Part shown: one piece after another, positions 35,175 to 61,875 of the stretch
Numbering within the stretch: position 1 is the first letter of the stretch
How the letters are laid out: each line of letters opens with the position of its first letter
Assembly (NCBI GenBank): GCA_026075535.2
Contig: AP026543.1
Location: forward strand, 11,098,001-11,162,000
Direction of reading: 5' to 3'
Length of the DNA stretch: 64,000 bases
Source of the DNA: Tricholoma matsutake
Lineage: Eukaryota; Basidiomycota; Agaricomycetes; Agaricales; Tricholomataceae
The notes under the pieces: model-generated
Told to the model about the DNA's origin: nothing
Database searches by the model: none
Seen by the model: the letters and a program-made list of their open reading frames with translations, nothing else
Position numbers and translations under genes: made by a program

Positions 35175-36601
35175 CATTCAACAATTCATCATTATTCGTT
35201 CAACATGAAGTTCAACATGGTCCAAAACCTGGACATTATGTTTTTTTTGTCTCATGCAAATGTACACATAATTTAATCAAATATAATAATTAACCTCCTT
35301 GTGCAAGATGCAAGGGAGTATACTACACTACATACCTAACACAAATGTGAGGAGGGCGGGGCAACAGTTTTAATTAACCAGAAAAAGAAAAAGAAAACCC
35401 TGCCCCTATGCAAAATGTGGGGAGGGGGTAGATGTGGCTGCCATTGCCCTGTCTTGGTATTGATGCCAGCCCTATTGTTGTCATGGCAATTTCCTCGTCG
35501 TTGTCCCACTCCCTCTCCCCATTGTCATTGCTGCACCCAATGAGCAGTCACTCACAGTGTGCTGTGATGCTGTTTGTGCCCATTGTCCCATCGTTGTTGT
35601 TGTGCCTGCTCCCTCCCTGTCATTCCCCATCAATGTTGCTCCACCCCACAAGCAGTTGCTTGCAGCAGCAGTTATGGGTGCATGCTGTGGTAGTGGTGGC
35701 CATCATCATTCTTGTCATCCCCCTCCCCATCATTGTCATTGTCATTGTCATGCCATCATTGTTGCCATTCTGCCTGCTCCCAGTCATCCCTGTCCTCACT
35801 GCTCCTCATGTCCACACCACATGCAGTGGCTCACAGCAGCATTGTGGGTGCGGCAGTGGCAGTGGTTGGCAGTCATAGTCATGTCCTTCCCTTCATTGTC
35901 TCCTTGTTGTTGTTTGTCATGTGGTCCCTGTCCCTGTCGTCTCCCAATTGCAGCAGTAGCAATGGGTGCTGGATCCCTTGGGCATTACCTGTTTCAAGGT
36001 AGTGACATAGCAGGAATACAGGGATGGGGGTAGCAGTGCTTACATTGTGGATATATGGGTACCCACTCACAGCAAAGTATTGCCTGCAGTTGTGGTAGAC
36101 CCAAACAAACCCCTCACATCCCACTTGAATGAGGGAGGAGGGGTACAAGCCATGCATTGTCATTGTATATAGAAAATGTAACCTAGAAATTTGTCACTAA
36201 GAAGAAAAGATACATGAAACACTTACTTAATGTCAAGAGGCTATGGTGGTGGTCAAGGCCACCATCTACAGAGGGGTGACATGTTTATGAGAGGGATGCA
36301 GCAATGTGACTTGGAGACAGTGGGAAAATGTTCATTGTTTATTTGGAATTGCCAGCTGGGAAAGTGTTGCCTCATATGGAGATATCAGTGCAGGGGACCA
36401 AGATTGGGATGAAGGATGGGGACAAGAACATCAATGCCAATGCCAATGAAAACAGTCGTGACAGGGAACAACACAGCACCCTCACTGGCCACTGTGAGCA
36501 ACAATAGGGATGCCAATGATGGCAACTACAAGGGTGAGGATGACAACAGGGCTAACAAATGAAACAGCAGATGGGGACCATAAACGTGGAGTTGCTAACA
36601 G
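35175..36601 (-). other. Structured module outside a recognised element
   Basis: The region is GT/TC-rich, and its long open frames are compositional. Palindromes at 35541-35554 and 35649-35662 belong to the same family as those in the elements at 37, 43, 54 and 61 kb. A minus-strand intron fits 36226 to 36183 (donor GTAAGT, acceptor AG). The segment near 35405-35430 resembles the reverse complement of 62090-62115, linking it to the Mutator-like element there. Terminal repeats of its own were not found. Confidence 0.45.
35541..35662 (-). repeat. Palindrome pair of the module family
   Basis: TGAGCAGTCACTCA (4-bp arms) and CAAGCAGTTGCTTG (6-bp arms, loop GT). Both are preceded on the plus strand by a CACCC-type run, as in the other arrays. 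Confidence 0.6.
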
Positions 36602-36814
36602 TACTTTACACTCCCCCCCCCCAGTCTGAGCGGACTCCACTCAGACACACTCGGACACTCGGACTTCACTCAGACTCTATTCAGACTCTGCTCAGACACT
36701 TGGACTTTGCTCGGACAACATCAATTGTGCATTTATTTACACCTTTAAAGTACTGTCCAAGTAAAGTCTGGGTTCCAGTCTTAGAGAAAGTCTTATAAGT
36801 CTCACAAAATAATG

Positions 36815-36905
36815 TGTGCACAGCAGGAATTGAACCAACAGCCCTCTGGACTAGCAATCATATGACAATGAAACATGCACACTCTACCACTTAAGCCAAG
36901 TAGTC
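36815..36905 (-). ncRNA. tRNA-like sequence with A and B boxes
   Basis: On the minus strand an A-box-like TGGCTTAAGTGG (36898-36887) precedes a perfect B-box GGTTCAATTCC (36836-36826) at tRNA-like spacing. The acceptor stem is poor, so this is not a functional tRNA gene. It may serve as an internal RNA polymerase III promoter. A similar sequence lies near each end of element M2. Confidence 0.5.
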
Positions 36906-37074
36906 ATTTAAAGTTACATACATTATATCTCTCTATTACTGAAATCTAATTTTTTATATATCATTAAATTGACCCCCTCGCATCTGTGTGAGGGGTAATT
37001 AATATGTATAATACTAAGCTCGAGGGGAGGGGGCCATAACTATCAATTATAAAAATAAATTAAAAACACCCACC

Positions 37075-37608
37075 ATGAGCAGTTGCTCGTGGCGGTGTTT
37101 GTCTCTCCCTGGGTCATCCCCTGGCCATCTCGCTCTCCTGTCCCCATTCTTCTCCCCCCTGAACCACCCCACAAGCAGATGCTCGTAGGCATGGGGCAGG
37201 TGTTGTTGTGGGTGTCCCCACTCTCATTGTCATCTCCCTTCCCTCTCATCTCCCTTTCCTCTCGTCTCCCTTCCCTCTCATCTCCCTTCCCTCTCGTCTC
37301 CCTTCCCCCTCACCTTCCACCCTGCAAGCAGGGGCTCGCAGCAGTGGTGGTGGTGGTGTCATCATCATCGTCGTTGCCAGTAGTAGTTTGTACCTATAAA
37401 AAGTTAGTTAGCATCGAAAAATGAAATGAGAAAAACTTACCTAGGACCCAAGAGATGTCAACATCTCTTGGGTCTCCCCTAATCATTGTCATTCCACCTG
37501 TTGTCCACCCTATGAGCAGTGGCTCATAGGGCTGGGGCGGGTGCTGTCATCATTCCCTGCCATAGTCATCATTCCACCCACCATCCACCCCACGAGCAGT
37601 TGCTCGTG
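37075..37608 (-). repeat. Array of covarying palindromes in M1
   Basis: Five units: 37075-37090, 37171-37186, 37324-37339, TATGAGCAGTGGCTCATA (37511-37528, 7-bp arms) and CACGAGCAGTTGCTCGTG (37591-37608, 8-bp arms). Most follow a CCACCC-like run. The outer arms differ between the perfect units but remain complementary. Confidence 0.75.
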
Positions 37609-38085
37609 AGGCTGGAGGCAGGTGGTGCGTCCTGCATGGTAGGCGTGAGGGCTGGGGGCAGGGGCTTGTTCTGTTGGGGTAGCCATTCTTGTCGTTTCGA
37701 AGTTGCACCCATTCCCACCCCACGAGCAGCTGTGAGTGCTCATTGTCATCAGCAGTACTAGATAATCCCTAAAAAAGTTCATTAGTAACAAAAACAAGAA
37801 AAAAAAACTTACCAATGGCCCAAGAGACATCAAATGATGTCCTAGGACTGTACGAGTGCTGGTCCACTCGGACTCCACTCAGACGCTCAGACAGTCCTAG
37901 GACAGTCCAAGGACTCAGCTTGGACTCAGCTTGGACTGGACATTTAGTTTGGCAGGACTTTCAGCCAAAGAAGTCTGAGCAAAGTCCAAGCAAAGTCCTC
38001 GGACAGTCCTAGGACTGTCTGAGTGTCCAAGCGGAGTCCACTTGGATTGGGGGGGGGGGAGTGTAAAGACCTCAGTTGCTAACAG

Positions 38086-38826
38086 CCTAATAGACAACAA
38101 GGCAGTCTTGGTTTGCAAATTCAGTGATTACATCATGCCCGTAATGAATATGTAAGAGGGTAACTATAATCTACTATAATATGCCTTGTGAAACAGCCTT
38201 TACATATTGACTCGAGGTTGGTGTACTATAAAGCCAGTCTCACACCTATAGCATGCAACTGAGGGACAATCACTAGGATGTCCAATGTTAGTTCATCCAA
38301 TCCTGCCAAACCCTCTTTTGCTGTTAGCAACAACTTGGACCATTTGATTAAAATTGAGTGCTGCACACTGTTGGTATCTTATCTAGTCTCCATCTTGCAC
38401 TTGCTGATGCTTGACTATGTATAGCCTTATATTTCAAACCTGATATAGGAAAAGAAAGCCCACCACTGCTAGTGCAGAACTTGAAGTATGTCCTGAGTCC
38501 TGGCTACTCAAGTTTTATATGGACCAGTCCCTGATTTAACACGAATTATTTACAGGCTTGCCTCTAGTAACCTTACATCCCATCACAATGCAAAGGTGGA
38601 GGCTGTATGGGCACAGTATAGACAGCAGTCGACCTCAGCAAGAGTTTAAGATTTATACTAGTACCAATGACTTGAATGTACTGTATTGAGTGACTAGTCT
38701 CCTAGGTCTCTTGGTCACATAGATGATAGACTTGAAGCTTGTGAGTGAGGTGGCAGATACAACTTGACTCCCCCTTCAATTCCTACTGATTGTGATTCAC
38801 AGTAACCACTCTTCCTCATGCTCTAT
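38086..38826. other. Unassigned flank of copia-3
   Basis: No gene or repeat was recognised. Open frames are short and no splice-consistent coding blocks were found. It is the 3' target flank of the copia-3 insertion. Confidence 0.4.
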
Positions 38827-39155
38827 TATAAGAGTGATAATGAGCTATAAATGATACAACTCAGCTCTACACTCAGAGAGTAGTAGACAGTCTGTATAAT
38901 ACCTATGAATGATACAACTATAGGTAATGGTAAGTATAATTTGCTATTGGTACATATAACTAGAATACTCACCTCAGCTCTACACTCGGAGAGTAGTAGA
39001 CAGTCTGAGGGAGGTATCTGTAATTGATGTGAGTATATATGAGTCAGATAGATGGTGATGACAGGCAGTGGAAGTGATCATAAGTACTAAAAATAGAGAA
39101 GCAGATAACAAACTTGATAACAACAATAGATTGTCTGCTCCAACACTCCCCCTCA
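38827..39155 (-). repeat. copia-3 3' LTR and polypurine tract
   Basis: The minus strand reads TGAGGGGGAG (39155-39146), then the LTR from TGTTGGAGCAGACAATC (39145) to CACTCTTATA (38827), 319 bp. Sequence 38827-39050 matches the 5' LTR part at 63653-63879. Variants such as CTCGG/CTTGG/CTCAG between repeats and copies are CpG transitions. Confidence 0.88.
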
Positions 39156-40870
39156 ATCTTTGTGTAATCCAAGTGAGGTGGCAAAGTACTTGACCTTCAG
39201 GCTCAGAAGTGCTTTCATAAGAGTATCGGCAATCATATCTTCAGTTGGACAATAGACCAACTTGAGTTTTCCCTCAGCAACGATCCAATGGATGAAGTAG
39301 AAACATATGTCGATGTGTTTTGTGTGAGTATGGTACTGATGATTGCGTGTCAGGGCGATTGCCAATTGATTGTCTCTGTACATAGTTGTTGGACCAGTGA
39401 ATTCCCCAAATATTTTGCCAAGCAATGATTGGAGCCAAATTGCTTCCTTCGTCGCTTGCGTAGCTGCCACATATTCTGCCTCCATTGTTGACAGTGCAAT
39501 TATCTCCTGTTTCTTCAAACTCCAAGAATCTGCTCCCCCATCCAACAAGAATGTGTATCCCAAGATAGCCTTCCTGTCCTCATGCATCAAACCATCCACA
39601 TCAAAATAGCCCTCCAACTCCATTGAGGAAATGCCAAACATCAACCACAAGTTGATCGTCTCTGCAAGGTAAGCAAAAACTCATTTCACAGCATTCCAGT
39701 GGGGTAATCCCAGGGTTTGAACAAATCTAGACAGTATACCCACTGCATAGGTAATGTCTGGTCACATACCCAGTGAGGCATACATCAAAGAACTGACCAC
39801 CTCTTGATATGGCTTGTTTTTCATTTCAGCAAATTCTTGTGCTATTTTTGGGCTATGGGAGGTTGATAGATGGGCGCTTGGATCCATTGGCATAGCAATG
39901 GGCTTCACATTCTCAAAACCATATCAATTGAGCATGGAGGTGATGTAGGACTTTTGGGATAGGGCAATGGTTTGAGCACCACAATCACGCTTGACTGTGA
40001 TCCCTAAAATCCAGTTAATCTCTCCAAGGTCAGAAATCTCAAAGGCTTTGCATAGCTCTATCTTGATTTCCTTTTCCAGATCAACTGACAATGCCATAGC
40101 CAAACAATCATCCACATGCACAGCCAGCACCATCAAATTCTCTCCCTCCACACGGTAGAATACAGCTTGATCTACCTCACACTTCTTCATTCGCAATGGC
40201 CCCATCAGTACACTCGAAAATGTTTGGTACCAAAGATGGCCACTCTGGCGCAAACCATAGAGGGGTTTGAGTAGATGACATACAAGGGATTTGTCATCTG
40301 TGAGGTGGATACCAGGAGGTAAGCACATATAGATGATTTCTCCTTCTTCAAACTCACCATTCAAAAAGGTGCTTTTGATATCGATCTGATGGATTTCAAA
40401 GTCATAGCATGCAGACATTGCTAATAGTGTGCGTATAGATGCCATTTTTGCTACAGGAGCATATGTCTCAAAGAAATTGATGCCAGGAACTTGCAAAAAA
40501 CCCTGGGCAACAAGGCATGGGTGGTAACATACAATCACACCTGATGCATCACGCTTCACAATGAACGTCCAACGACATCCAACGATATTTGTGTTTGGGA
40601 GTGGTTTCTCGAGTCTCCAGGTACTGAACGCCTCTAGCACCATCCTTTCCTCCACCATTGCCTCCTGCCATCTTGGTCAGTCAGGACTCCTCATTGCCTC
40701 CTTCAGGTTCTGAGGTTCTAGCCCATGCGCCTCCACAAGTTCCCCCTCAACATTCTCATTATCTATGTCATCATCCACTTCCTCAATTCTCGCTTCAGGT
40801 ACAGGCATGCCATGGGGGAAAATGGGCTGATTCTTTAGACCCTGGGCAGATCCCTTTCAAGATTGCACAT
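39153..40870 (-). pseudogene. copia-3 reverse transcriptase and RNase H
   Basis: RT starts near 40690 (LKEAMRSPD, stop, PRWQEAM) and runs through VGCRWTF, QIDIKSTFLNGE and KPLYGLRQSG, with the catalytic stretch VHVDDCLAM (VDD) near 40110. RNase H follows with DVDGLMHEDR, STMEAEYVAA, DNQLAIALTRN, HTKHIDI and ADTLMKAL. The stops LN*YGFEN, GM*PDITYAV and VK*VFAYL each sit at a conserved Arg position of copia RT, so each fits CGA to TGA. The 5' boundary is the gypsy LTR at 40871. Confidence 0.88.
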
Positions 40871-40880
40871 TGATGATACT

Positions 40881-42197
40881 TAGTGTTTGAAAGTCCAGTT
40901 GCATGGACCGAAAAAAAACCAGCAACTGAACCGGACCCAACCGCGGTCCGGTCTGTCTCACAGGTTCTGCAGCAGTGGTTGTGGACTGGTCCGGTTGCTG
41001 GTTGTGTAGTTTTTCAAATAATTATGGATCAGGTAAAGACTGGTTGCAACCAGTTGCAACCGGTCTTTGATCATAATTTGATGTGCTGCTAAGGTAAGTG
41101 ATCAATAGATTATACTTGATACAAGTAATCTGAGTGCTGGCACTGAGTGACCAAATAAGTTATTGTAGGATTGTAATGCCTTAACAGCTATGTCCATAAA
41201 CCAGGATTCCACACTGTATAGAGTATATCTACATCCACCCAAATGCACTAATTGAATGGTGCAGTGGTTCATTCATGGTAAACACCCTTCCTCCTCATTC
41301 CTCTCAAAACTCCGTAGCACTGTAATTAAATAACGGCTCACTCGATTCTCTTGTAAACTTGGATTATACACAACATATAGTATATATATGTTCTCCCTAA
41401 AGCGCTAGTCAAACGGTGCAGTAATACATTTATGGTAAGCAACCCTTCCTCCTCATTCCTCTCAGAACTACATAGTACTGTAATGGCTCAACTGATCCTT
41501 TCGTAAACTTGGATTAGACACAATATATAGTATATATATATTCTCCCCAAATAGCTAGTTGAACGGTGAAGTCATTCATTTATGCTAAGCAACCCTTCCT
41601 CCTCATTCCTCTCAGAACTCCATAGTACTGTACTTCAATAACGGCTTAACCGATCATTTCGTAAACTTGGATTATACACAACATATAGTATATATATGCT
41701 CTCCCTAAAGCGCTAGTTGAACAGTGCAGTCATTCATTCATGGTAAGCAACCCTTCCTCCTCATTCCTCTCAGAACTCCATAGTACTGTAATTCAATAAT
41801 GGCTCAACCGATCCTTTTGTAAACTTTGAATAGACACTATATATATGATATATACACACACCCCAAAGCACTAGCCACATGGTCTAGCCATTCATTTATG
41901 ATTTTGTCAGTAGTGTTTACTTCTATTACTACTACTAGTTATTGAAATATGTTACTTCGAGACATGTATATTAGTGTACAAATAGTCGGTCCTGACCGGT
42001 TGTGAACTGGTCAGGACCAGTCTATATATGGACCAGTTTTAAACTGGTTTGGCAACCGTGAGGCAACCGAGTAGAACTGGTTTACCCCAGTCCGGTCTTC
42101 GGTTGCCTTGATTTTGAGCATGTAAGCAACCGGACCGGTCCACGGTTGCCCCTGTTGTGGTCAAAAAAACCAGACCGGACCGGACTTTTAAACACTA
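40881..42197. mobile_element. Non-autonomous hAT-like element, 1317 bp
   Basis: The left end is TAGTGTTTGAAAGTCCAGTT and the right end read inward is TAGTGTTTAAAAGTCCGGTC. The 8-bp duplication ATGATACT lies at 40873-40880 and 42198-42205. CCGGTC/GACCGG motifs fill the first and last 200 bp. The core is a four-copy tandem repeat and has no coding region. Confidence 0.93.
41215..41880 (+). repeat. 150-158 bp tandem repeat, about four copies
   Basis: The landmark CCCTTCCTCCTCATTCCTCTC recurs at 41285, 41443, 41593 and 41751. Each unit also carries GTAAACTTGGATTA and a TATAGTATATATAT tract. It is confined to the hAT-like element. Confidence 0.85.
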
Positions 42198-42360
42198 ATG
42201 ATACTCAACCCAGAAACCCAAACAAAACACCTAAAAGGGTCCTATTTGGTATAACACAAGTCAGAGGAAGGTTGCAATTCATTCTAAACTTTCACCAATC
42301 TCCAATAATAATGAACTAGATGATCTGAACAAAGTTTGGGATTGCGAAGTAGTTTCGAGG

Positions 42361-42440
42361 TGTTGCAATATTTTTCGAGGTGTTGCAATATTTTTCGAGG
42401 TGTTGCAATATTTTTCGAGATGTTGCGATATTTTTCGGGA
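42361..42440 (+). repeat. 20-bp tandem repeat, four copies
   Basis: TGTTGCAATATTTTTCGAGG is repeated four times, the last two units with small changes. It lies within the family G LTR and is absent as an array from the other LTR copies seen here. Confidence 0.85.
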
Positions 42441-42750
42441 TTGTGAAATGGACTGCAAAGATATTGGTGAGTGATGGAAAGGTTGATAAACAATGCGAGA
42501 GGTGAGCAATGATGAATACAAGAGGATGCTGAAAATATCGAGAGGGAAAATGAGGATGAATGAGTTTTGACAAAATCCAAAGAATTTTCGGAATAAAACT
42601 TGTGACTCAAATGATGAGAAGAGAATTTTTTTAGCTCTCCACTACTAATACTATACTTGAGGGATGCTTCCCTTGTTATTCATTGTGGATAATACAGGGT
42701 TTTGTAGGTTAAAAGGAGATAGTACCAAAAAGGCAATAGTGGGCATGTGG

Positions 42751-44156
42751 TAGGGCTGCGCACTGTCCGTATTATGGCCACGGCCGTACAACACACAGTA
42801 GTTTGACAGATATGGTAGACCATACACCATCCATATATCTAACACCCATAACCTCTGATGGTATGGTATGGGTACCAATACGGCCATATTACGGTTGACA
42901 GAAATATAATAATACACAAAATTGAATATAACATTCCAGTACTATGCAGTGACAGGAGTTTGTTGTTTGCAATGGTCCAGAGTGTTTTATACATTGGAAT
43001 TATTATTCAGATAGTGTGAGGGATGATACAAATGTTCTTATTGAGATAAGTACAACTAACCGCCCTCGCACACAGCGAGGGAAGGGGCTACAAGAATAAT
43101 GAATGACAGAAAACAAAAAAAGCTCCCATGAAAAACGCAAGTTATTCACCCTGGCTGTCCATCCCCCCTCCCTGTTGCTCCCCGTTTCCACCCCGCAAGC
43201 AGTTGCCCGTGGTGGTGGTTGGGGGTGCTGTGGTGGTGGTGGTGGTGGTGGTTCTCATCCTTATCCTCCCCATCCTCCTCATTGTTGTGTTCACCTGCCG
43301 TCTCCATCATTGTCAGGTACTCTCTCTGTCTCCATCCCATCCCTGCCATCATGGGGTCCGTTGTGCCGCTCATTCTGGCCCTGCCACTTTGGTTGTCCCT
43401 GGTCATCCCCTCGTCGTTGTTCAGTTTCCTTTTGCTTGCATCGCCGTGGTCATAATCCACAGCAAAAGTAGTCCACCCTGCGAGCAGTAGCTCGCAGCGG
43501 TGGGTCTGGGTGCTGGGTCTGGGTTGTTGTTGTGCTCATCCCTGTTGTTCCCATCATCGTCGTCCTCTTCGTTGTTGTTGTCGTGATTTAGTCGTCGGCA
43601 TCCTTCGTCTTCATGCCCTTCTGCAGTCTCCTATGCCCAAATGATGAGGCAGTCCTCAGCCAGCGGGTGGAGGTGCGTTGGTTGTCATTGTAGTGTCGTT
43701 GTTAAATAAAACCTGTAGATAATAACAATAGAAGTTAGTTGAATGAAGAAAATGAGAGAGGAGACATAAAAAACACTTACCCGGGGTGGTCATATTCCCA
43801 CCATTTGTTTGTTCGGTGGTGGTGGTAGCCCTGCATCATCATCGTCGTTGTCTTACTGACAAGGCGAGCTCACCGTTGTTGTCGTCGTTGGGCTTATCTT
43901 TGTTGACTGTTTGGTCATTGTGTGATCGAAACCTAAATAAATTTGTCAGCATTTCTATTTTTGGCTGAGTGCTTATAGAAAGCGCCATATAACCGTATGC
44001 ATGGCCATAACAACCGTCTTTTGATGGTCAATATGGCATAAATCCATACCGTACACCATACCGTCAAGGCAAGTCTCAAGGTCCTGACGGTATGGGTACC
44101 GTAACCATCAGACGGCACCATGTAACCATCAGTGTATGGCACGGTGCGCAGCCCTA
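42751..44156 (-). mobile_element. Non-autonomous hAT-like element, TAGGG type, 1406 bp
   Basis: The left end is TAGGGCTGCGCACTGT and the right end read inward is TAGGGCTGCGCACCGT. A perfect 8-bp duplication GCATGTGG lies at 42743-42750 and 44157-44164. Subterminal arrays of ACGGTATGG/CCATACCG units mark both ends. The core holds the structured module on the minus strand: intron 43780-43713 (donor GTAAGT, acceptor CTACAG) and palindromes at 43193-43496. No transposase was found. Confidence 0.92.
43193..43496 (-). repeat. Palindromes of the module family in the TAGGG-type hAT
   Basis: TGCGAGCAGTAGCTCGCA (43479-43496) has 7-bp perfect arms. A decayed unit, GCAAGCAGTTGCCCGT, lies near 43195-43210. 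Both follow a CCACCC-like run. Confidence 0.7.
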
Positions 44157-45414
44157 GCATGTGGAGAACATGAGGCAAAAGAAAACATATGGACTTCAGG
44201 GATGAAGTGATAACTGACATGGAACAATAATCACGAGTCTAGGGAGTGTGGGAGACAATAAATCGAAATATAGACTGTCCTTTTGTTCTAGAATTGGCTA
44301 AATATTGCAAATATCACAAAAATATTGCAAAACATCATGATGCGCCTCAAGGGGATGTGTGCTGCATGAATGTAGCCGAAATGTGGTTCGTCAAAGTTAA
44401 TTATGTAAAGGGGAAGTGATGGGAAGCATGCAAAGTGCTGGGGGTCCATGCTGAAGTGTGCGAAGTAGAAACTAAAAATGCAAAATCTTTGAAATGTCCG
44501 AAATTTGATTGGAAGCTTGTGAAATAGTCGAAAAAGGTTCGAAAGATGCCGAAAATAGATGCAAAATAATTGAGGGGTGATTGTGAATGTCTGTGGCTGT
44601 GCATTGACTATCTGTGAATCTGCAAAATCATTTTCCGAGCTTATACTGGCTGGTGGACCTATCATCCTCCCCAGTTGTTAAATACTGACTGTCCCCAGTC
44701 AGCTGCACTGAGTAACATGTGAATCATTGGTAGATGGCATGATGAGGTGCAAAACGACGTAAGAAGGAGAGTAGGATGGTTGAAATAAGTCCTAAATAAT
44801 TTCGTTGACAATATCGCAAGCTGGATCGCAAATTTCAGGAAAAACAACAAACATTGAGGGGTTTCCGAATGTTGAATGAAAGTCGAAACAAGCAATGAAA
44901 GGAATATCGAAGTGATGTGACTCGTGAACGATCGAAGAAGTCAGATGTCAAGGAATGTTGGGAAAATAACTTTTTGGTGAATAAAGATCATTTTCGGGGA
45001 ATAGCGAAACTAACTGTGACTGGTGAAAGATATTTTTTGCTGTAATGATCTTCTCGAAGAAATTTCGGATGTTTGTTAAGGCGTGAGATCTAGGGGACAA
45101 GCAAGTTGATAAACATTTTGTATGGATTGGGATAAAGGTCGAATTGGTTTCGAGGACCTTCATGGAACTGTGGTCTTGCTGTGCGACTTGTTTCAAAGTA
45201 ATCTGGTCTCTGTATTTCATATGAAGTTCGGGTGACAACAAAAGTAGTTCTTCGAGATTTAGCATGGCGATCGGGACGTTCATAGTACGATCGAAGATGT
45301 CCCATGCAATTGTCGTGTGCTGAACAGAGCCATGATGGCTGTGGTATGAAGAATCTTTGCAAGGTTTTGGAGCTGTACCGAAATTTTGTTCTTGTGGTGG
45401 CAAATAAGCGTTTT

Positions 45415-45688
45415 TGTTGAAATTAATCCCAGTGATGCATGCTGTATACATGAGGCAATACATGCAGCATACGCATGTTACTGCGCTTACTGCGCATACA
45501 TGCGGTAAACACATTCCTGAGTCATGTGACATCCTTATTATTATGTATATAAGGAGAACCTGTACCATAGTAGGAATACAGTGTTCTTACCTCTGCTAAC
45601 CCTAGCTGTAAGTCTAAGTAAACCCCAGGTAGGTTGTAAGGAACGTGTTGTCTCTTCCACTGTGCAGCGTATATAGTCTGCTCCAACA
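45415..45688 (+). repeat. copia-4 5' LTR
   Basis: 274 bp. It contains an alternating GCATAC/GCGC-rich block and a TATATAAGGAG promoter-like stretch near 45546-45556. It differs from the 3' LTR at GACATCC (GACGTCC in the partner) and CAGCGTAT (CAGCATAT in the partner). Confidence 0.95.
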
Positions 45689-45708
45689 GGTTATGGTCCC
45701 TGCTGGGC
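45689..45708 (+). other. copia-4 primer-binding site
   Basis: GGTTATGGTCCCTGCTGGGC starts immediately after the LTR. Like the sites of copia-1 and copia-3 it begins GGTTATGG, fitting priming by the 5' half of initiator tRNA-Met. Confidence 0.65.
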
Positions 45709-50806: not shown

Positions 50807-50829
50807 CTGCTTAGAGCGCTGTACAGTTT

Positions 50830-51112: not shown

Positions 51113-52870
51113 GTTTTCTCGAGTATTGGCGAAGGGATGGGATCGGGGCTGTGAAGACAAAGTTAAAGTCGAAGCTGGACGTTCGTGGGTGGCTGTACGA
51201 GATGCTGAAGTCGAAACTGGATGGGTTATTGCTGTGGATGAAGCTGAAGTCGACATTTCGCGAACTGTTTCGGTGCGAGGCAAAATGTGAGGAATTTCCG
51301 ATGAATCGTGAGGTGTGTGGGCTGGGACGAGTGGGGGATCACTGCGATCAAATTGTGTAGTTTTGTGAAGTGCGAAAATCTCTTTTTCGAGGGCCAAAAT
51401 ACGAGCTTTGAGATTGTTCGTGAAGTTCAAAATTTGATAACTGTTGCGAGGAGATTGCGACGAAATAGGCGAAGGTGCAATATCGTACATGAGCGATGGT
51501 GATGTCGAGGGGCAAACTCCGGGGTTTTGTCGAAGTAATTCGTCGATTCTGTCCTTGATAAAATGTCCTGGAATGTTTCGAGGCATGAATTGACTGTTAG
51601 GAAGCACGACTTTGCCTTCAGCGTTCTTCTTGCATTTCCCGTTCATAATATATGCCTGACAAGTTAAGCATTCACCAATATAGTGACTAGACTGGCCACA
51701 GAATAGGCAAACAAAATTTTCGGAGTGATCATGATGTGCGCGGGGATCATTTCGTGAAGTAGGTGCGAATTTCGAGACTGTGAGAGCATTTACAATTGTT
51801 GTACCAAATTTATCGAGAATAGACGAAATATCTTCGAACTTGACATAGGTCGATGGTGCTGAAGTCGAAGTCGATGATGCAGGACTCGAAATTGAAGCCA
51901 GATTGCTAGGGGATGTAGCTTGAGTGTTTTGTGATGTGTCTGAACATGCTAAAACAAATTTCGCACCTAAGTGAATGTTGTTGAGAGTATAGGGATCGTC
52001 GGGATAGTGATCAGGGAACCTTAGCTCGAGGCGATGTGTGATACGTGCCCATAAACCTAATTCGAAGCCATGAATGAATGCTCTACTTTGTTTGGTTTCC
52101 GAAATTCGATTTTTCGAACGAAGATATTGGGTGATGTTGTAGAATGACCGAAAATATGTTCCTAAATCTGTAGAACTGTGGATACCGATGCGAAGCTGTT
52201 CGCCGATGAGTTTATCCATGTCCGAAATCGACCACTTGCAATTATCATCTGATCCTGGATATAGAGCATGTACTGCAAGTCGAAAGGTGTCGAAGTCTGT
52301 GCCAGGTGCAAATTCGGGTAACGATTCCCATAATTCGGATGAATCAATGTCGAGGTATCTGCAGGCATGTTTCTTCATAAGTGCGATGTCAGTAACAGTG
52401 CATTCTCTGAAAAGAATTTCGAGTTCGTCGAAAAATCGATGAAGTTCGTGGGGGTGAGCTGAGTCAAATTTTGGGGCTGTCAAATGACCGCGCGCAGGCA
52501 TAGAATGAGTTGCTATAACAGATAGAGTTGATTTCGAAGATTTCGGGGATGTGCAAAATGAAATTAATTGCAATGGAGTTTTGGGGAGTTGCAAAAATAA
52601 GTTCGAAGGGAATTTCGGAATGAATACAAGTGGCGACAATAATTTCACAGGGAGTTTCATGATGGATAGGCATTTTGTAGTCGATGTGGTATATGCTAAT
52701 TGCAATTTCGAAGTCGTTGGGATGTCCAAAGGAAGCAATTGATGAAGGAGTGAACACAAATCTGGAACTAGGACAAAGAAGATCTCCCAGATTTTCAGGA
52801 GGTGTGAAGGCAATGTGAGTGTTGAGACGAGGAATACAAGGTGGAGATGGTATGGAAATGATTTAGAAAC

Positions 52871-52887
52871 CCTCATGGTGGGCTCCA
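52871..52887 (-). other. Array primer-binding site overlapping the gag start
   Basis: The minus strand reads TGGAGCCCACCATGAGG three bases after the LTR end GCATCATCA. TGG at the start fits pairing with a tRNA CCA tail. The embedded ATG in the context CCACC-ATG-AGG opens the long gag frame. The same sequence lies beside the LTR at 57471. Confidence 0.6.
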
Positions 52888-52890
52888 AAA

Positions 52891-53886
52891 TGATGATGCT
52901 CGACCAGGAAACCCAAACAAAACCTACTAAATGGCTTCGGATGGTATAACACAAGTTAGAGGAAGAATGCGAGGCCCTCTAGATGTCACCTGTCAGACTG
53001 ACCATCAAATAGTCATAAAAGGACTGCTTGTCAAAGCAATTTGTCGCTAAAAGAATGTGTTTCATAGAATTTCAGAGAATTTTGTGGCTAGATTGATGAA
53101 TTCAGAGTGCACAAATATGTTCAGACCCAAGATCAGGGGACTAGACGAGTAGTAGAAGTGAAGCAAAGGCAAATCGAGGGAAATGAGAGCGAAAATAGTG
53201 TAATGCAAGGATTTTTGAGGATTTTCAAAGAAGTTTAGTGTAAAACACCAAACCTCAGACTGAATAAGACTAAACTGAACTCTCAAATCACTGCAATCTG
53301 GGAGGAAGACGATGACTTTCTTGTTTTTCTTTGTATCTAGTACATCTTTTTATATAAAATAAAGAAACTACCTAAAAAGGCTAGAGAACATGAGGAAAAC
53401 ATGTGGAAAACTCAAGGCAAAAGACAATAGAAGTATATCAGAACAATAAAGCGAGACTATAAAGGGTGAATATAACACATGATGAAGAAATAATAAGAAA
53501 GAATAGCTAAAAGTGGACTGTCCTTGTTATAAATTGCATAAAACATTGGAAACTGCTTCGAGCGGATTGTATGGGTGCACATGCAGTCAAAATGTGTTTG
53601 ATATACTCGAGATAGTGTCCCATGTGTTCAGCATGCATCTGAAGATTGTTCAAAAAGGAAATACTGTGTCCAAAGATGTTTTTCGAAGTTTGAGGTTTTT
53701 CGAAGATTTTCAAAGATTCTTTGGACTTCGTTCGTGGCCCGAAATAGGTGTGATATTGCTCAAAACTGGTTCGGAACTCATTGACAATGTTCCAAGTGTA
53801 TATTCTGAGCTGTACAAAGTGTTCAAAGTCAATTGAAAGTGCAAAAACTGATATATTGGTGCTTGAACTGTGCTGGGGACCTATTA
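52891..53886 (-). repeat. Family G LTR, shared middle copy
   Basis: 996 bp. On the plus strand it runs from TGATGATGCTCGACC to GGGACCTATTA. In element orientation it has a polypurine tract before it and a primer site after it, so it is at once the 3' LTR of unit A and the 5' LTR of unit B. Confidence 0.88.
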
Positions 53887-54002
53887 TCCTCCTCCCCCTG
53901 ACTAAAATCCTGACTGTCCCAGTCAGTTGATCAAACTGCAAAGGCATATCAAATGAGATCAAATTAAATTGATGTGAAATGGAGTGTCAAAGTTGAAATG
54001 AA

Positions 54003-55588
54003 TAGTGCTTTGAGGTCCGGTCCAGTCCGGTTTTTTGCCCTCCTTGAGGGTGGACCGAGGACCGGACCGGTCATTACATTTTCGAAGTATGAAAAAAACC
54101 AGACCGGACCCTATAGGAACAGTCTACTATGGTTACATAGCAGTTCATACACCAGTTTTGACCAGTTCAGAACCTGACCAGGTCCTGACCAGTCAACAAC
54201 TGGTCAGGACTAACTACTTACTGGTAATTACAATTATATATAACGAGAAAGTAAAACAAGTAAAACAAAAACAAAAACAAAAGCACCTGCAGTCCACCTC
54301 ATGAGCAGTGGCTCGCAAGGCTGGAGGCAGGTACAGAGCCGTCTTCATTGTCGTCTGCCCCCCCCCTTGTTACTCGTGTTCGTTGTTCCCCCGGCCCCAC
54401 GTTTGTCATTCCCCACCCCCTACATCGTTGCTTGTGTTTGTCGTTTGTTGTTCCCCTGTCGTTGCATGGGCTTGTCATTCCCTGTTGTTGCATGGGTTTG
54501 TCATGTTGTTGTCATCGTTGGCATTGGCCTCGTTGTTGGCATTGGCCCCATTGTTGGTGTTGTTGGCCCCATGGTTGGTGTTGTTGTTGGCCCTGTCATT
54601 GTTGTTGGCATTGGCCCCATCATTGTTGGTGTTGGCCTTGTTTTGGGCATAGAGGGTGCCGTTTCATGTCTTTTGTTAGCTGGGGGAGATTGCAACATGG
54701 CAGGGGGTACTTACCTGAGTGGGTGCCATTTTCTCCTAGTCGTCCCCATCCCGCCATCCCTTGTGTTCATTTGGTTGTTCACAGCACCCACAATCCACCC
54801 TGCAAGCAGTTGCTTGCAAGGCTGGGGGCAGGTGCTCATTACTCATCGTCTCCTGTTGTTGCTGGTCCCCTATCCACCCTCTATCCACCCCATGAGCAGA
54901 GAGGGCTCGTGGCAGCAGTGGGGGGTGGCTCATCGTTAGTCTAGAAAGTTGGAACCTAAAATACAACCAAAAAGTTATTAGTTAGTTATAATTCTTATGA
55001 AATAGAAAGAAAGTTCTTTACCTGGACCCAGACAACATTTAGCTGTCGTTTGGGCTCTGTTTTGTGCATTGTTCATACCCTATTCCGACCTTCGATAGGT
55101 TGTGGTCATGGTGGATGTGGGAGAGAAAGTGAGTAGCAAAGTTGAAACATGTTGCACTGCAGTACAAATAAATGTAAACATGTAAACAAAAGATGTAAAT
55201 GAACATGTAATGAGAAGCGCGTGACCATGCAAACAGGTACAAATGGTCCGTGCTTGCATTGCAGTATTTAAACAGCTCACTTTTCATTCTTTTCACTTGG
55301 GTATGCCCCATTTTTTAACTACAAGATATGTAAATTGTAGTGTATTATAATTTATTGTACAGACATATATATATTTGTTATCCATTAGCAAGGGACCGTA
55401 AGTTTGGTCTAGAACCAGTCTAGACTGGTTTTCAATGGTTCTAGTAAGTGTTGAGGAAAATGAGAACCAAGAACTGGACTGCTGGAAGACCTGGTTGAAC
55501 CAGGACCAATGGTCCTATAAGACCAGTTCAAAAGTGCAGTCCGGTTCGGTCTGGTCCCTGGTCCTATGGACTGGACCTCAATGCACTA
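54003..55588 (-). mobile_element. Non-autonomous hAT-like element with structured module, 1586 bp
   Basis: The left end is TAGTGCTTTGAGGTCCGGTC and the right end read inward is TAGTGCATTGAGGTCCAGTC. The perfect 8-bp duplication GAAATGAA lies at 53995-54002 and 55589-55596. CCGGTCC motifs are clustered at both ends. The core carries a minus-strand intron 55021-54956 (donor GTAAAG), a hairpin beside the donor (55027-55054) and palindromes at 54301-54911. A GTTGTTGGCATTGGCCC-type low-complexity tandem lies near 54500-54640. No transposase was found. Confidence 0.92.
54301..54911 (-). repeat. Palindromes of the module family in the 54-kb hAT
   Basis: TGCAAGCAGTTGCTTGCA (54801-54818) has 8-bp perfect arms. 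54891-54911 pairs CATGAGC with GCTCGTG (one T-G pair). 54301-54317 is a decayed unit. All follow a CCACC or CCACCC run. Confidence 0.72.
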
Positions 55589-55596
55589 GAAATGAA

Positions 55597-57456
55597 AGCC
55601 ATCGAGGCTAATTGAGGAATGTCGAGCATGGTGAAGATGAGTTCAATAAATAGAATGAGCTTGAAATGTGAGCGAAAGAGAAGGAAATGGACGAATTTGG
55701 TTGATGTTGAGAGTGCTAACCATGATCGCTATAATCAGGTCGAGGAACTAGTCAAATATAGTTCGCATGAAAGATTGAGGGATCAAAAACGAGGTTGATG
55801 AAACTGTGGTCAATGATGGATGTAATAAAAATTTCGGGGATGATGACAAGGGTTGCAAGCTGAGGACTATAGATATATGATGGATAGGGAACTTCGAGCA
55901 CTATATTGGACTTTGAGGGCGAAGGTGAACACGAAACTGGTTGTGAAATAGATGGGGGTGAAGATGATGGCAAAGACAACATCGGAGATGAAAATATTGG
56001 GAGTGGCAAGCATGAAATCGAGGTCAAAATGGGTGATGTCGAGGATGAATATGATGAAAATATCGGGCGGGATCAGACTAGATTGCGGAGGTGAAAATGG
56101 TGTTGGAGGACGAGTTGAAGTCGAAAATGGTAATTCGAATATTTCACGTTCTTTGGACGATGTCGAAACTGTTGAAGTTCATATGATCAATGCTATGGGT
56201 GAAGATGAATTTATCGAAGATGAAACTGGTGCAGACAAGGGGATGGACTCAGGAACTATAGGACAAAGACCAGGAGGTGCAAAATGATGATTTTGAAGTT
56301 TGAAGATTTCTTGTTTGAGTGTGAGCTCTTCTTCGAGGGCTAATTTGCATTAGAGCACTGCGATGCGAGCTTCTACACTGTCTGAAATGTTTGAGCTGTG
56401 ATGCATACTGTCAACCATTTGGTTCAGTGCAGTAGAAGGTGCTATATCAGTGAAGAATGAGGTCAGGACTGAAATGTCGGATGCTGTTCTGGTCGGATGT
56501 GAAGCTGCAAAAATCGATGTGAAGTTTGATGCGAAATGTTCGAGAATGTGCGAAGCATCATCGAAGTTGATCAATGTGCTAGACTGCGATGAATTCGAGG
56601 TTGAGATCGATTGCTGGGGAATGGAATACAAGTTCGAGGATGCTATAACAAATTTTGCAGCATCATGGATGTCGTTCAGAGCATATGGGTCATCAGGATA
56701 ATGATCTGGGAACTTAAGTTTGAGATGATGTGCAATTTGAGTCCATAAATCCGTTTGAAAGTCTGTGTTTTGAGCAAAGAAAAGTTGTAACATTGTAGAA
56801 TGTCCTATAATAAACTCCTAGATCATTTGAGTCAAAAATACCAATGCAAAGCCATTCATGAATGAGTGTGTCCATGTCCAAAATGCTGTATTTGCATTTG
56901 TCTTCCGATCTGGGATAGAACTTGTGTACTGTGATGCGAAATACATTAAACAAGGTGCTGGGCTGGTACTCTGGCAGTGATTCCCAGAGTTCGTAAGAAT
57001 CAATGTCAATGTATCTGGAAGCATATTTCTTCTTCTGTAATACCGCAAGTCAGGAAAAGAAATTTGAGCTCTTCAAAGTATTTTTGTAGCTCTCTAGACT
57101 GTTTTGGATCGAATTTCAGCGATGTAGAATGACCACAAGCTGGCATAAAGGACATTGACATGATTGAAGTAAATTTTGGGGGCTGTGAAGTTGAAATTCA
57201 TGCAATATCAGGCTTCATGTGTTTCCAAGTCAAAGATGGTAGCAAAACAGTAAATGCGAAGGGTGAAAGCATGCAAAATGATATTATCAATGGTTGAGAT
57301 ACTGTATCAAGACCTCCTGGTTGTTCAGGAGGGTCTGAGGTGCTACAAGTTCAATGCGAAATCAAAATTGTCGAGCTTCCTTCAACCAAAGGCCGAAAAA
57401 AATAGTGGTGGAAAGGTGGGGAGGTCTGACAATGAACTGATCTAGAAAGCCCTCAT
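55597..57456 (-). pseudogene. Array gag, unit A, degraded
   Basis: Homologous to unit B gag: segments such as KFPDHYPDDPYALNDIHDAAKF (split here by its length) align with RFPDHYPDDPYTLNNIH of unit B, and LHKFYPRSEDKCKYSI-like residues match the stretch around LYPGSDDNCKWSI. The equivalent ATG is at 57456-57454, inside a primer site identical to that of unit B. Many stops and frame changes are present. The hAT-like element at 54003 lies beyond its C-terminal part. It is older than unit B by its state of decay. Confidence 0.7.
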
Positions 57457-57470
57457 GGTGGGCTCCAAAA

Positions 57471-58495
57471 TTATGATGCTCAACCAGGAAACCCAAACAA
57501 AACCCACAATGAGGCCTTGAATAGTATAATGCTAGCTAGAGGAAGGTTGCAAGGTGGTAGTAAATATCACCGGTGTTACCCAAGGTTAGGAAAACAACTT
57601 TAGAGAGGGTCTGATGATGCTCAATGAGGTTTGAGGGAGTACAAAGCACTGCAATAATGTTTGAGGAAAGTTCAAGGATGTTCAATGAAGTTTGAAGAAG
57701 TTTGAGGGGCTTATAGAAGATGAGGATGATTTTGACGAAGGCTGAGGATAGACTATAAAGATGTAGAAAGGCCTTGAGAGGGAATAGACAATAGACAATA
57801 GTCTTGAGAAGCTAGTATGAGAAGTTCAAAGAAGTTCAGCGTAAAACACTGAACTTCAGGACTAAGACCAGAGGCTTGGACTCAAGAGAATTGCTCTTAA
57901 ATCAGATGATTGATGTGAGAGGACATTCTATTCTGTTGTTCCAAGTAGCTAGTACAAGGCTATATATGTTTGGAAGAGATGGTACTTAAAAGGAAATAAA
58001 ACATGAGGAATACATGAGGCAAGATATAAAACAATAAAGAACTTTGCAAATCATAAAATAAATGGAAGATGATGAGAAGGGAAATGTATAGAGTCATGAT
58101 TTATCATGGGTACCTGTCCTATTGATCCAATATATCATCAAGACATTAAAGCGCCACAATTGCGTCCTAAAATCTTGTCGTTGTGTCTCCTTGTGTCCAG
58201 TGGTGCTCAATATGCAACACACTAACTCATACAAGGTGTGCTGCGTGTGTCTGAAGGGTGGTGCGATAAGCATATGGCAGCCAAAGGTGTTCAAGGTGCT
58301 GCAAAGTCATTCGAACTCATTCGAGATTGTTTGAAGTCATTTGAAGTCATTTGAAATAGTTCGAAATGATTCGAAGTCATTTGAAATAGCTTTGGAGTGG
58401 TTTTGTGGGGTTCGTAGGGGTTGTGAGCATGTGTGGTGATTTGTTGATGCATTTGGAGATGTTCCCAGAGCTTAGATCACAAGGTGGACCTATCA
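57471..58495 (-). repeat. Family G LTR (5' end of the array)
   Basis: 1025 bp. On the plus strand it runs from TTATGATGCTCAACC (first base pair changed from TGATG) to GGTGGACCTATCA. Its outer edge abuts copia-3 integrase sequence. It is CpG-poor compared with the middle LTR. Confidence 0.85.
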
Positions 58496-60717
58496 ATGTC
58501 CCTGACATATTGTGAGGGTTTTCAGACATGAGTGGGGCACATTTCGGGTTGTGGAGCCAGTTGCACAACAGGTTGAACAACAGGTGTGGGAATGGGTGGA
58601 TTAGGTGGTAGTCGCACAGGAGTGGTATTCTCGTCAAGTCCCTCATCCTCCCCCTCAAGACTCACATCCTCATTATGTGGCACCATCTCGTGTGTCTCAG
58701 AAAATTTTACATTTCTCTCAATTCCCACTGACCTTTTGTCTGGCCAATAGATGTGGTGTGCCTTACTATTTTCATCATAACCAACCCAATGGCCCTCCTT
58801 CACTCTCACACCAATCTTCCCTGTCTTATTGTCATGAACCCACACTTTGCAACCCCATTCTGGCAAGTCTTGAAGATTGGGAGGTCTTCCATTCACTGCC
58901 TCATATGGTGTGCAGCCACTAAGTGCCTTTGTCAAAGTGTGATTATTTAGGTACATTGCATGCAAAAGAGCTTCCCCCCACATATAACGAGGTAAACCTG
59001 CAGCCCAGAGCATAGTGCAAACCTTTTCCATCAATGTACAATTCAGCCATTCTGAAACTCTGTTCTCCTCAGGGGTGTCATGCACCATGAGTTTTCTTGC
59101 TGTCCCCTTGCCATTGAGGTATGCGATAAGGACCTCTGACATATATTCTCTCCCATGATCAGAATGCAAGCACACAATTCCAACCTTCAAGTGTGTTGCG
59201 ACCCAAGCTTCAAAAGTTTGGTAGGCCTCAAAGATATCCTTTGTCTTAAGGAGGTAAACCATTGTCCACTGAGTACAGTCATCGGTGAAGCTAACAAAAT
59301 ACTTTCGGCCCCCTAGCGATGCAACTTGTGGCAGTCCCCATAGGTCTGACCAAACTTCTTGACCAAACATGGTAGCCCGCTCCCCCTCACGCTCCTTAAC
59401 GATCTCACAATGAACAAGCTTAGCCTTAATGCAAGCTTCGCATTCGAGTGGCTCATCGGAATTGACTAGCAAGAGACCTGTCACTATACCATTTGTGACC
59501 AGCTCCTGGGCAGTGCATGGAGCGATGTGGCCATACGACAATGTAAGTCCATCACGGTAACTCCCTGGGGTTTTACAATATGTGCTGATGGGCTTTTGAC
59601 ATCTCGAATGACTCTGTATAGAGCCTGCCTCTTTGGTATCATACCAATCAGCTCCCCATTCCTCCTGCAGATCTTGCAATGCCTGTTACCAAATAAGCAG
59701 AAAAATCCGGCATCATCAATCTGACCAATTGAGATCAAAGTCAAACCAATGGATGGTGTATACAACATGGAGGTAAGGCATATCTTTGTAGTTGCCAGCT
59801 GGTTAGGAACAGATATGATCATGTCCCCTATCCCATCAGCTTGAAATTTCTGCTGATTCACAGCAGTCATCATTTTGGGCATGGAGGCTTGGAAAGTCAT
59901 GAAATCCTTGCAGATTGGTGTCATATGGTGAGAGGTTCCAGTATCATATAGATCCCAAAGCTTACCATTCATAACTTTAGGCAGCGAAGCCATCAATGCA
60001 AGACTTCCAGAAGATGCATGAAATGGCTTGCTCCAAGTAGTGTCGAATTCAGCAACTAATGCCTGCATGTCCATCAGGGCAAAAGGATCCTCGTCCCCCC
60101 CATCAATGCCTTTGACAGCTATGATTTCAGCAACCCAGCGGGTGATGCGAGCTTCCTGGAGCTCAGCATCCCCATCATCTTCTTCATCTAGCTCAAGAAC
60201 TCCCATAATGTCAGGGTCCTCATTGTCAGGTAAGCCATGCTGTTTGACCTCTTGATCGTCGTCGCTGACCCAGCCACATGGCGGATCTAACACCCATAAT
60301 GCACCATCATAAACAGGGTCAACACCACTGCTCTCAAGATGTGCAATAATCCCTTTCAAGATCGAATCCACTTGATGCACCAGCAACTTCATTGAGCAAT
60401 GTGGAAGCAGCAGCATTAGCGGTGTTTGAGGGACTGGTGCCCAGTTTTGGCTTCAAATTCCCCTTTGGGTTCAACACCTTCTGATCCTTTGACTTTTTGT
60501 CAGGCTTTGGAGTCGGGCATTCATCCTGCTTGTGGCCTTTACCACCGTGGTTCCAGCAAACCCCAACGGGCTTATGTGGGTGGGCCTTTCCCCTTGCCAC
60601 CTATTCCACCCCAGTTTTGGAACCAGGTTTCTTGCTCAATATGGTGCTTGCAGCTACTCCAACATCTTTTGGCTTTGATGTCTTCTTGTCAGCTTGATGG
60701 TCATACTCCTCCAGTGC
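58496..60717 (-). pseudogene. copia-3 zinc knuckle, protease and integrase
   Basis: The middle part of copia-3 Pol. The nucleocapsid knuckle is CWNHGGKGHKQDEC near 60540. Protease: LYDTGTSHHM, catalytic Asp kept, near 59940. Pre-integrase: YGHIAPCTAQEL and CEACIKAK. Integrase: EVWSDLWGLP (first Asp), CLHSDHGREYMS (second) and ENRVSEWLNCTL (Glu; the Cys of NCT replaces the usual Arg, CGT to TGT, again a CpG change). The C-terminal RPPNLQDLPEWGCKVWVHD is typical copia. A TGA at 58522 (THV*KPSQYV) sits at an Arg position. Frame changes occur near 59500-59680 and 60340-60420. The 3' side ends at the gypsy LTR. Confidence 0.88.
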
Positions 60718-61039
60718 GAGGTCTTTACACTCCCCCCCATATTCCTATAGGAATCCGATGATTCCGATGATTCCAATCAGACTCCAATCAGAATCTGACC
60801 ATATTCCAATATCATTTTCACCAGCCAAATTGACATGAAATAGCAGGTTTAGTCCTAGTCCAGTCCGATGTTATTCTGATTGGACTATTGGAATTTCCTA
60901 GGAATTTCCTAGGAATTTCTGGTCATAGGAATCACATAGGACTATTCCAAAGGTATGCTAAGACATCAGACAACATACGATTCCGATAGGAATGAAAGCA
61001 GCCTTGCTTAGTAATATAGTATGAAAAAGTCAATGCACA

Positions 61040-61112
61040 CACCAGAATTGAACCTTTAACATTACAGAAGATTATGTAAGCCTAAACCAACAACAATACC
61101 ACCAGGCTAAAC
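61040..61112 (-). ncRNA. tRNA-like sequence, left side of M2
   Basis: On the minus strand an A-box-like TAGCCTGGTGGTA (61109-61097) is followed by a B-box-like GGTTCAATTCT (61054-61044). Stems are imperfect, so it is tRNA-like rather than a tRNA gene. Confidence 0.45.
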
Positions 61113-61682
61113 AGGCATTACAGGTAAGTGATCATACTACACTCCCATGGGTGTGATGACAAAGCACATAGCCGTGTCATCACACCTGCCAGCTCATCAC
61201 TCCCACCACCACCACCAACAACAACAAGCATGCCACCTCCATCCCCCCCACCTCAACCACCTCAACCCAGCAACTCCCACCACTCCCACTTCACCCCCAT
61301 CTCTAGACAAGCCCCCAAGACTGGAAATGACTGGTTTTGATGCTGAACGATGCCCAAACAATGCAATTGTCGTTTGGGCCCATAGTAAGTTTTTTTTCAT
61401 TCGTTTTTTACTTTTGTAAACTAACTAATTCATTTGTTTTGTTTCTAGGTTCTAATCTACATGAGTAATGACAGACCGATGTGAGCCAAACCCACACCCA
61501 ATGATGCCCCTGGCAACCCCCCTCCTCCCCATCAAAATGGGATGTGAGGGTATCGATCGTGGTCAGGAGTGCGGGGAGCAACACCAGGAGACCCCAGAAG
61601 GGGAATACCTGCCCGGTAAGCACCACCCGACCCCTCCCCTCATGCCACATCACTGATGAACTGGCAATGCACCCACCCCATG

Positions 61683-61875
61683 CCTACGAGCTGCTGCTCG
61701 TAGGGTGGATCATGAGTGCATGGACCCCTCACGACACCGATGACATCCAGCACCCCTCATCACCACTGTGAGTGACTGCTCACAGGGTGTATATGGGGTG
61801 CAAGAGCACAGGAACACCATGGAGGGATGATGATGGCACCAAACGACACGCCTACGAGCAGCTGCCCATAGGGTG
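61683..61875 (+). repeat. Palindromes of the module family in M2
   Basis: CCTACGAGCTGCTGCTCGTAGG (61683-61704, 9-bp arms; length given by coordinates) and CTGTGAGTGACTGCTCACAG (61766-61785, 7-bp arms) are perfect. 61852-61872 is a decayed unit. Here the GGGTGG run follows the palindrome because the module is in the opposite orientation. Confidence 0.75.

Follow-up and report, generated by a model that had tools for sequence, protein, structure and literature searches.

Non-autonomous DNA transposons are usually viewed as passive, with their ends as the sole requirement. Capture of genes by elements with terminal inverted repeats (TIRs) is established, and Pack-TIR elements are non-autonomous TIR elements possessing cargo, target duplications and introns. 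Mutator-like elements are delimited by TIRs and a target duplication of ~8–11 bp, and the coat-protein hairpin of the MS2 type is a short bulged hairpin. PMC8277862 deals with Pack elements, and DNA-transposon signatures were reported for many introner families in PMC9860276. The mobile sequences of Tricholoma section Caligata described in PMC10627285 are the dimeric Alu-like megB1, the long terminal repeat marY1 and marY2N, a retroelement resembling a long interspersed nuclear element; for the same section a single megB1 copy located outside the rRNA gene is described. Here we describe a module of hairpins and intron-like stretches shared by hAT-like and Mutator-like elements in a 64-kb window of Tricholoma matsutake DNA (positions 11,098,001–11,162,000 of contig C6). 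The genome searched has 161,040,721 bases in 13 contigs, and the genome-wide counts, copies and covariation all refer to this one genome. The module is undescribed in the literature searched, in which subscription papers were mostly outside reach, so that this is no proof of absence.

The elements resemble Pack-TIR elements (Pack-MULEs and relatives) in non-autonomy, TIRs, cargo, target duplications and introns. They differ in that no captured protein gene was found, and one structured cargo is present in two superfamilies, with thousands of hairpin copies. Ordinary non-autonomous hAT and Mutator-like families also possess TIRs, duplications of 8 bp or 8–9 bp and many copies, whereas here the internal hairpins and intron signals are common to elements with either kind of end. 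Introners and introner-like elements are likewise mobile sequences tied to spliceosomal introns; this is in contrast to the present elements, whose ends are not splice sites and whose introns are located inside. megB1, marY1 and marY2N come from the same fungal group, and the module is set apart from them by their descriptions, not by sequence. The likeness to MS2-type hairpins, with the present hairpin occurring in several copies on one strand, is an analogy only. We consider it moderately probable that the module is a structured non-coding RNA, probably spliced, which non-autonomous transposons of the hAT-like and Mutator-like superfamilies carry as a common cargo.

Elements and the shared module

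The four elements of the window carry three types of ends in two classes. TAGGG and TAGTG, named after their ends, have the TAG-type TIRs and 8-bp duplication of hAT-like elements. M1 and M2 have the TIRs and target duplication of Mutator-like elements and one terminal type, with the common terminal sequence GAGGTCTTTACACTCC. These class labels rest solely on ends and target duplications. A sequence-only reading of this DNA had counted the same four elements and three terminal types, as the target-site duplications (TSDs) of TAGGG, TAGTG and M1 and the terminal sequence of M1 and M2 bear out. Searches with the four element bodies, in which 40 candidates were scored each and the copy lists are lower bounds, gave further genomic copies of TAGGG at 90% identity or more. 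For M2, 40 copies were scored, 39 of them besides the window's own at 90–91% identity. Majority consensuses were built from 7 TAGGG, 18 M1, 9 TAGTG and 5 M2 copies. The 8-bp TSD is perfect in 5 of the 7 TAGGG copies (one copy with one mismatch, one without a TSD) and in 6 of the 9 TAGTG copies (two with one mismatch, one without). At fixed borders, 8 of the 18 M1 copies have a perfect TSD of 8–9 bp and 10 have none at that strictness. M1 stands as an element by its 9-bp TSD, with the correction that the window holds a deletion copy, which spans 1,465 bp between anchors as against 2,037–2,263 bp in all 17 other copies. The M1 family consensus of ~2.1 kb contains three hairpin-intron units (two introns found by script, the middle one by eye), and the middle unit corresponds to the window intron at 37812.

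Sequence is shared across these ends. The best common segment scores 48–92 bits in all six pairs of consensuses, compared with a top score of 27–30 bits among 200 dinucleotide shuffles. Between M1 and M2, several matching segments are distributed over the body. The match between TAGTG and M2 spans hairpin, donor and intron (44 bits, shuffle maximum 29.7), and that between TAGGG and M1 runs from the intron to beyond an exon hairpin (41 bits). By eye, the exons start alike after the acceptor (GTTCTAATCTAC-type) whether the ends are hAT-like or Mutator-like. Genome-wide, the exact hairpin core GAGCNNCTGCTCNNNGGGTGG has 6,155 matches versus 1 for the pattern read backward. The hairpin-plus-donor pattern GCCCAA-N(10-30)-TTGGGC-N(1-8)-GTAAGT has 2,510 versus 0, a count that includes some double counts from variable gaps (3 overlapping pairs among 50 rows examined). 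Low-complexity linkers do occur in the exons, as would be expected if the resemblance came from common GT/CA-rich, repeat-like sequence. This explanation is highly improbable, being refuted by the shuffles, which exclude composition alone, by the backward patterns and by the match between TAGTG and M2. The module matches spread beyond one element family, and the earlier view of a module common to unrelated ends is upheld by the six consensus pairs and by the presence of both end classes among the further loci discussed below.

The exon hairpin plan, obtained from folded consensus palindromes, is ~48 nt in length, with CCA(CC)/(GG)TGG, a stem of at least 8 bp capped by an NNCT loop, and GGGTGG on the 3' side. 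In many hairpins a G is bulged out on the 5' side, and several have an outer ACCC/GGGT stem. A hairpin model was made from 15 of 24 folded rows, 13 from consensuses and 2 from a fifth locus at 35.2–36.6 kb. It gives 14 strong matches in the 64 kb (E 2.5e-8 or better), all inside the four elements and the fifth locus; since consensuses of the same families served to train the model, this confinement is partly by construction. With the same proviso, the palindrome arrays seen earlier are recovered. The exact core is present in 4 of the 14 strong hairpins, and by extrapolation from this one window the genome total may be ~20,000 such hairpins.

Intron-like stretches of 44–68 nt, the length previously noted, are found in all five loci. 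A GCCCAA..TTGGGC hairpin is positioned directly before the donor in M1, M2, TAGTG and many other copies. The pre-donor hairpin of the sequence-only reading is thus strong in M1 (37440), TAGTG and M2, but the script detects no strong one in TAGGG or the fifth locus. A shorter hairpin that differs in sequence (GGTGG..CCACC) precedes the donor in both, as seen by eye and, in the latter, also by folding. In the window's M1, the stem of the 37812 unit is a weak one of 7 bp. The comparison was extended to 16 further loci, taken from the top of the list of pattern clusters and all located within the initial 1 Mb of contig C1; their choice is independent of element family, yet they represent a single region. 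In these loci, a stem score of at least 8 precedes 8 of 16 intron-like donors on the module strand and none of the 5 on the opposite strand; for the remainder of the window the count is 0 of 13. We also note hairpin-intron units spaced every ~150–160 bp, with short exons alternating with introns, at L086 569, 729 and 880 and at C1:1518767, 1518917 and 1519070.

The fifth locus matches the TAGGG consensus at 71 bits (BLAST E 4e-15, a value given without shuffle control) and has an intron-like stretch of its own. It keeps its place as a diverged relative of the module, but without demonstrated ends. No second full-length copy, only partial relatives, was found when 40 of the 192 candidates were scored. 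Diverged relatives of 35200–36610 at C11:32925, C6:30287 and C5:49244 are less than ~50 kb from the contig start, perhaps in subtelomeric positions. Beside the locus, at about 30000–35150, non-LTR-retroelement-like sequence with an A run at its end was recognized by eye. The features are collected in Table 1.

Table 1. Module-bearing elements, predicted introns, hairpins and tRNA-like boxes, with end assignments of the further loci.
Feature	Element or class	Position	Strand	Remarks
hAT-like element	TAGGG ends	42751..44156	-	TIR and perfect 8-bp TSD; module on minus strand
hAT-like element	TAGTG ends	54003..55588	-	Perfect 8-bp TSD; module on minus strand
Mutator-like element	M1 (deletion copy)	36599..38073	-	9-bp TSD; module on minus strand
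Mutator-like element	M2	60718..62718	+	M1-type terminal sequence; 8-bp TSD with one mismatch by eye; module on plus strand
Diverged module relative	Fifth locus	35200..36598	-	Limits as searched; ends not demonstrated; 71 bits to TAGGG consensus
Predicted intron	TAGGG	43713..43780	-	68 nt; GTAAGT donor, CTAAC, CAG acceptor
Predicted intron	TAGTG	54956..55021	-	66 nt
Predicted intron	M1	37769..37812	-	44 nt
Predicted intron	M1	37394..37440	-	47 nt
Predicted intron	M2	61385..61448	+	64 nt
Predicted intron	Fifth locus	36183..36226	-	44 nt
GCCCAA-type hairpin	TAGTG	55026..55055	-	4 nt before donor
Hairpin GACCCAAGAGATG..CATCTCTTGGGTC	M1	37445..37474	-	13 bp, no mismatch; 4 nt before donor
GCCCAA-type hairpin	M2	61352..61379	+	5 nt before donor
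Exon hairpin	TAGGG	43462..43510	-	56.7 bits
Exon hairpin	TAGGG	43177..43225	-	48.9 bits
Exon hairpin	TAGTG	54874..54925	-	39.3 bits
Exon hairpin	TAGTG	54784..54832	-	57.8 bits
Exon hairpin	TAGTG	54283..54331	-	45.7 bits
Exon hairpin	M1	37574..37622	-	56.2 bits
Exon hairpin	M1	37494..37542	-	57.8 bits
Exon hairpin	M1	37306..37354	-	57 bits
Exon hairpin	M1	37153..37201	-	51.3 bits
Exon hairpin	M2	61671..61719	+	58.4 bits
Exon hairpin	M2	61753..61801	+	49.4 bits
Exon hairpin	M2	61838..61887	+	39.9 bits
Exon hairpin	Fifth locus	35801..35849	-	44.2 bits
Exon hairpin	Fifth locus	35630..35678	-	49.2 bits
tRNA-like boxes	M1	36826	-	
tRNA-like boxes	M2	61044	-	
tRNA-like boxes	M2	62416	+	
tRNA-like boxes	M1 consensus	243, 1865		Consensus positions
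Both ends	Mutator-like	L078, L082, L083, L087		One mismatch allowed
One end	Mutator-like	L073, L076, L085		
One end by eye	Mutator-like	L086		Also kinship to L078 and L073
Exact target duplication	hAT-like	L081, L084		L081 duplication resembles own subterminal motif
Target duplication with one mismatch	hAT-like	L088		

Pairing, strand bias and coding potential

The arms of the exon hairpins covary. In the 15 hairpins of the model, two-sided changes are observed in 14 cells versus 4.9 in shuffled rows (0/500 as high) and at 5 pairs versus 2.5 (29/500), and 96.4% of cells are paired versus 92.0% (0/500). All 18 hairpin-like rows give 19 two-sided cells versus 3.9 (0/500), 6 pairs versus 2.3 (1/500) and 92.9% paired cells versus 87.6% (0/500). 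In 46 distinct matches of the pre-donor hairpin, the inner six pairs contain 210 Watson-Crick cells versus 170.9 after shuffling (0/1000 as high); this hairpin covaries, but alone it cannot separate RNA from DNA.

Palindromes acting at the DNA level, either as binding sites for a dimeric protein or as recombination-prone inverted repeats, would need no RNA role, and several consensuses indeed contain perfect dyads. The G.U and A.C forms were compared in hairpins picked by anchors outside three tested pairs (27 distinct hairpins in the 16 loci and 78 in earlier loci). At pair 1, a CpG, decay is almost symmetric, with 28 G.U and 21 A.C, near-equal as neutral decay predicts, and the pre-donor hairpin shows little G.U bias; both observations suit a DNA palindrome. 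At pairs 2 and 3, in contrast, G.U exceeds A.C by 31 to 6 on the splice-signal strand (binomial 4e-5 if sites are independent, which they are not fully). The excess is 9 to 1 in contexts where a CpG is impossible (two-sided binomial 0.02 if independent) and 22 to 5 where it is possible. Neutral rates in the same families are 0.025 for C>T and 0.032 for G>A outside CpG, and 0.283 and 0.255, respectively, within CpG. These rates fail to predict the excess at pairs 2 and 3, which has no mutation bias to match it. We also note that CpG transitions in the TAGGG, M1, TAGTG and M2 families exceed other C>T or G>A changes about tenfold in frequency, which fits methylated, decaying copies.

The DNA-level explanation is further opposed by the change of arm sequence with retention of pairing, the 5'-side bulge in many folds and the same-strand association with splice signals, and we regard it as rather unlikely. 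Covariation together with the excess of G.U over A.C on the splice-signal strand favours RNA structure over DNA structure and points to a hairpin that would act at the RNA level. The RNA module proposed in the sequence-only reading gains from both observations. Genome-wide, the compensated form of the core, AAGC..GCTT, occurs 876 times, where independence predicts ~540 on the assumption that the G.U form is as common as the A.C form.

The exon-intron layout could also reflect capture of a host gene of the Pack-TIR type, in which intron-bearing pieces of a gene family decay inside hAT and Mutator-like elements, with the hairpins left over from coding repeats. Counted for this explanation are the established gene capture by TIR elements and an (E/K)(Q/P)LL.GW-like peptide, which one frame of the core gives in several places by eye. 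However, the four consensuses have no shared open reading frame (ORF) in either sense, spliced or unspliced, and eight chosen consensus ORFs gave nothing above the Pfam cut-off (best E 0.15), and a coding gene is disfavoured. Moreover, the listed pre-donor hairpins differ by lengths not divisible by three, and the hairpin arms covary. A captured host gene appears about as doubtful as a role confined to DNA, and the captured gene ends suggested earlier find no support in these ORF and Pfam results. Among known RNAs, Rfam models matched once in the window stretch and 19 times in 13 loci, each time below the gathering score. The best of these matches (E 8e-7) is a microRNA-precursor model at L076 145–248, outside the hairpins. 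This stretch is a long inverted repeat that scores with several microRNA-precursor models and is probably an inserted small palindromic element.

Several observations weigh against a structured, spliced RNA cargo. A 263-nt piece of the TAGGG exon is not unusually stable (z -1.7; 11/200 shuffles as good), and further pair types are ordinary in both the 15 rows (204/500 shuffles) and the 18 rows (109/500). The cell counts in the covariation are not independent events, as copies share ancestry, and 10 cells enter the G.U test in strictly CpG-free contexts. The core with a one-sided change to A.C, AAGC..GCTC, is commoner than the compensated form (1,826 versus 876 matches). In the pre-donor hairpin, G.U (35) is barely above A.C (26). 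A strong pre-donor stem is present at just half of the intron-like sites of the further loci, and one of these eight stems, that of L081, resembles a subterminal repeat. A unit-like stretch was obtained from only 11 of the 16 loci, and the unit of L084 lies downstream of the hairpins. Finally, the tree of units is well supported at only 1 of its 17 inner branches and does not prove exchange of the module.

Ends of further loci and the question of exchange

The hairpin model matches every one of the 16 further loci, with 48 matches in total at E up to 0.001. Eleven of these loci have assigned ends, 8 Mutator-like and 3 hAT-like (Table 1); the other five are L074, L075, L077, L079 and L080. Under looser rules for units, 22 rows were found, of which L076_450 and L086_1004 were dropped as not module-like. 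The remaining 20, including those of the four consensuses, were used for the tree. The hAT rows remain ungrouped (0% of 200 bootstrap trees); they cluster no better than shuffled labels, of which 284/500 score as low (51/500 for the Mutator-like rows). The tree agrees, without proof, with an exchange of cargo between families, which the sequence-only reading had proposed and which would account for one module between different ends. Ancestry from one element without cargo sharing was considered and is not favoured, given ends and target duplications in two groups, though the tree resolves little.

Similar ends are present whether or not an element carries the module, as seen from another hAT-like element of the window at 40881–42197. 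It has TAGTGTTTGAAAG ends and the target duplication ATGATACT, and its ends are related to those of the module-bearing L088 (51 and 38 bits), but it contains neither the hairpin core motif nor a match to the hairpin model. Internal direct repeats of roughly 115 bp were seen in it by eye.

A module that moves by itself, as a short interspersed nuclear element (SINE) or another element inserting into transposons, would also be found between different ends. Outward-pointing A and B boxes of tRNA-like type, situated close to each end of the M1 family consensus and of M2, could be taken in its favour; the deleted M1 copy of the window has an exact B box in just one place. Among the four consensuses scanned, however, the boxes are absent from TAGGG and TAGTG, and no A and B boxes of a tRNA-derived SINE lie within the shared module. 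ARAGORN predicts zero tRNA genes in window positions 34000–63500. Hairpin number and spacing vary by family, and an unsystematic look at the family comparisons revealed no constant module border. We judge a self-moving module quite improbable, well below the DNA-level and captured-gene explanations.

Domain searches of the genome gave at least 60 MULE matches and at least 151 hAT dimerisation matches (for hAT, 150 of 449 candidates were scored), which are tied to no element ends here. Upstream of the module copy in L074, the end of an open frame at 1–277 shows a SWIM-like Cys/His pattern by eye, and this frame end adjoins the MULE match at C1:171796.

Proposed role of the cargo

In the RNA cargo reading, a cargo of ~0.8–1.4 kb (limits by eye) would reside inside many non-autonomous TIR families of the two superfamilies, whose movement would depend on transposases supplied from elsewhere. 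The cargo would represent one transcription unit with 1–3 units of donor, short intron and acceptor, mostly with a GCCCAA hairpin before the donor, and with 1–7 copies of the ~48-nt bulged NNCT-loop hairpin. It would be transcribed, and probably spliced, while the elements are active. From the retention of pairing despite sequence change on the splice-signal strand, we infer transcription, probable splicing and a benefit to the carrier. The folded RNA may help its carrier element, and as a guess it could bind a host protein by which the transcript is protected, retained or shielded. Nesting, recombination or capture may have placed the module between different ends.

Tentatively, this RNA can be pictured as a selfish module that is transcribed, spliced and folded, benefits its carrier and passes between hAT-like and Mutator-like families, such that cargo and ends evolve separately. 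We put this forward as a possibility, with clearly less confidence than the existence of the shared RNA cargo itself. According to PMC10211490, unclassified repeats constitute 25.4% of the matsutake genome, and this module may be included among them and thus be the source of a part. If the proposal is true, a structured cargo has been kept across two superfamilies, and the interior of a transposon would be selectable as RNA and would travel separately from its ends.

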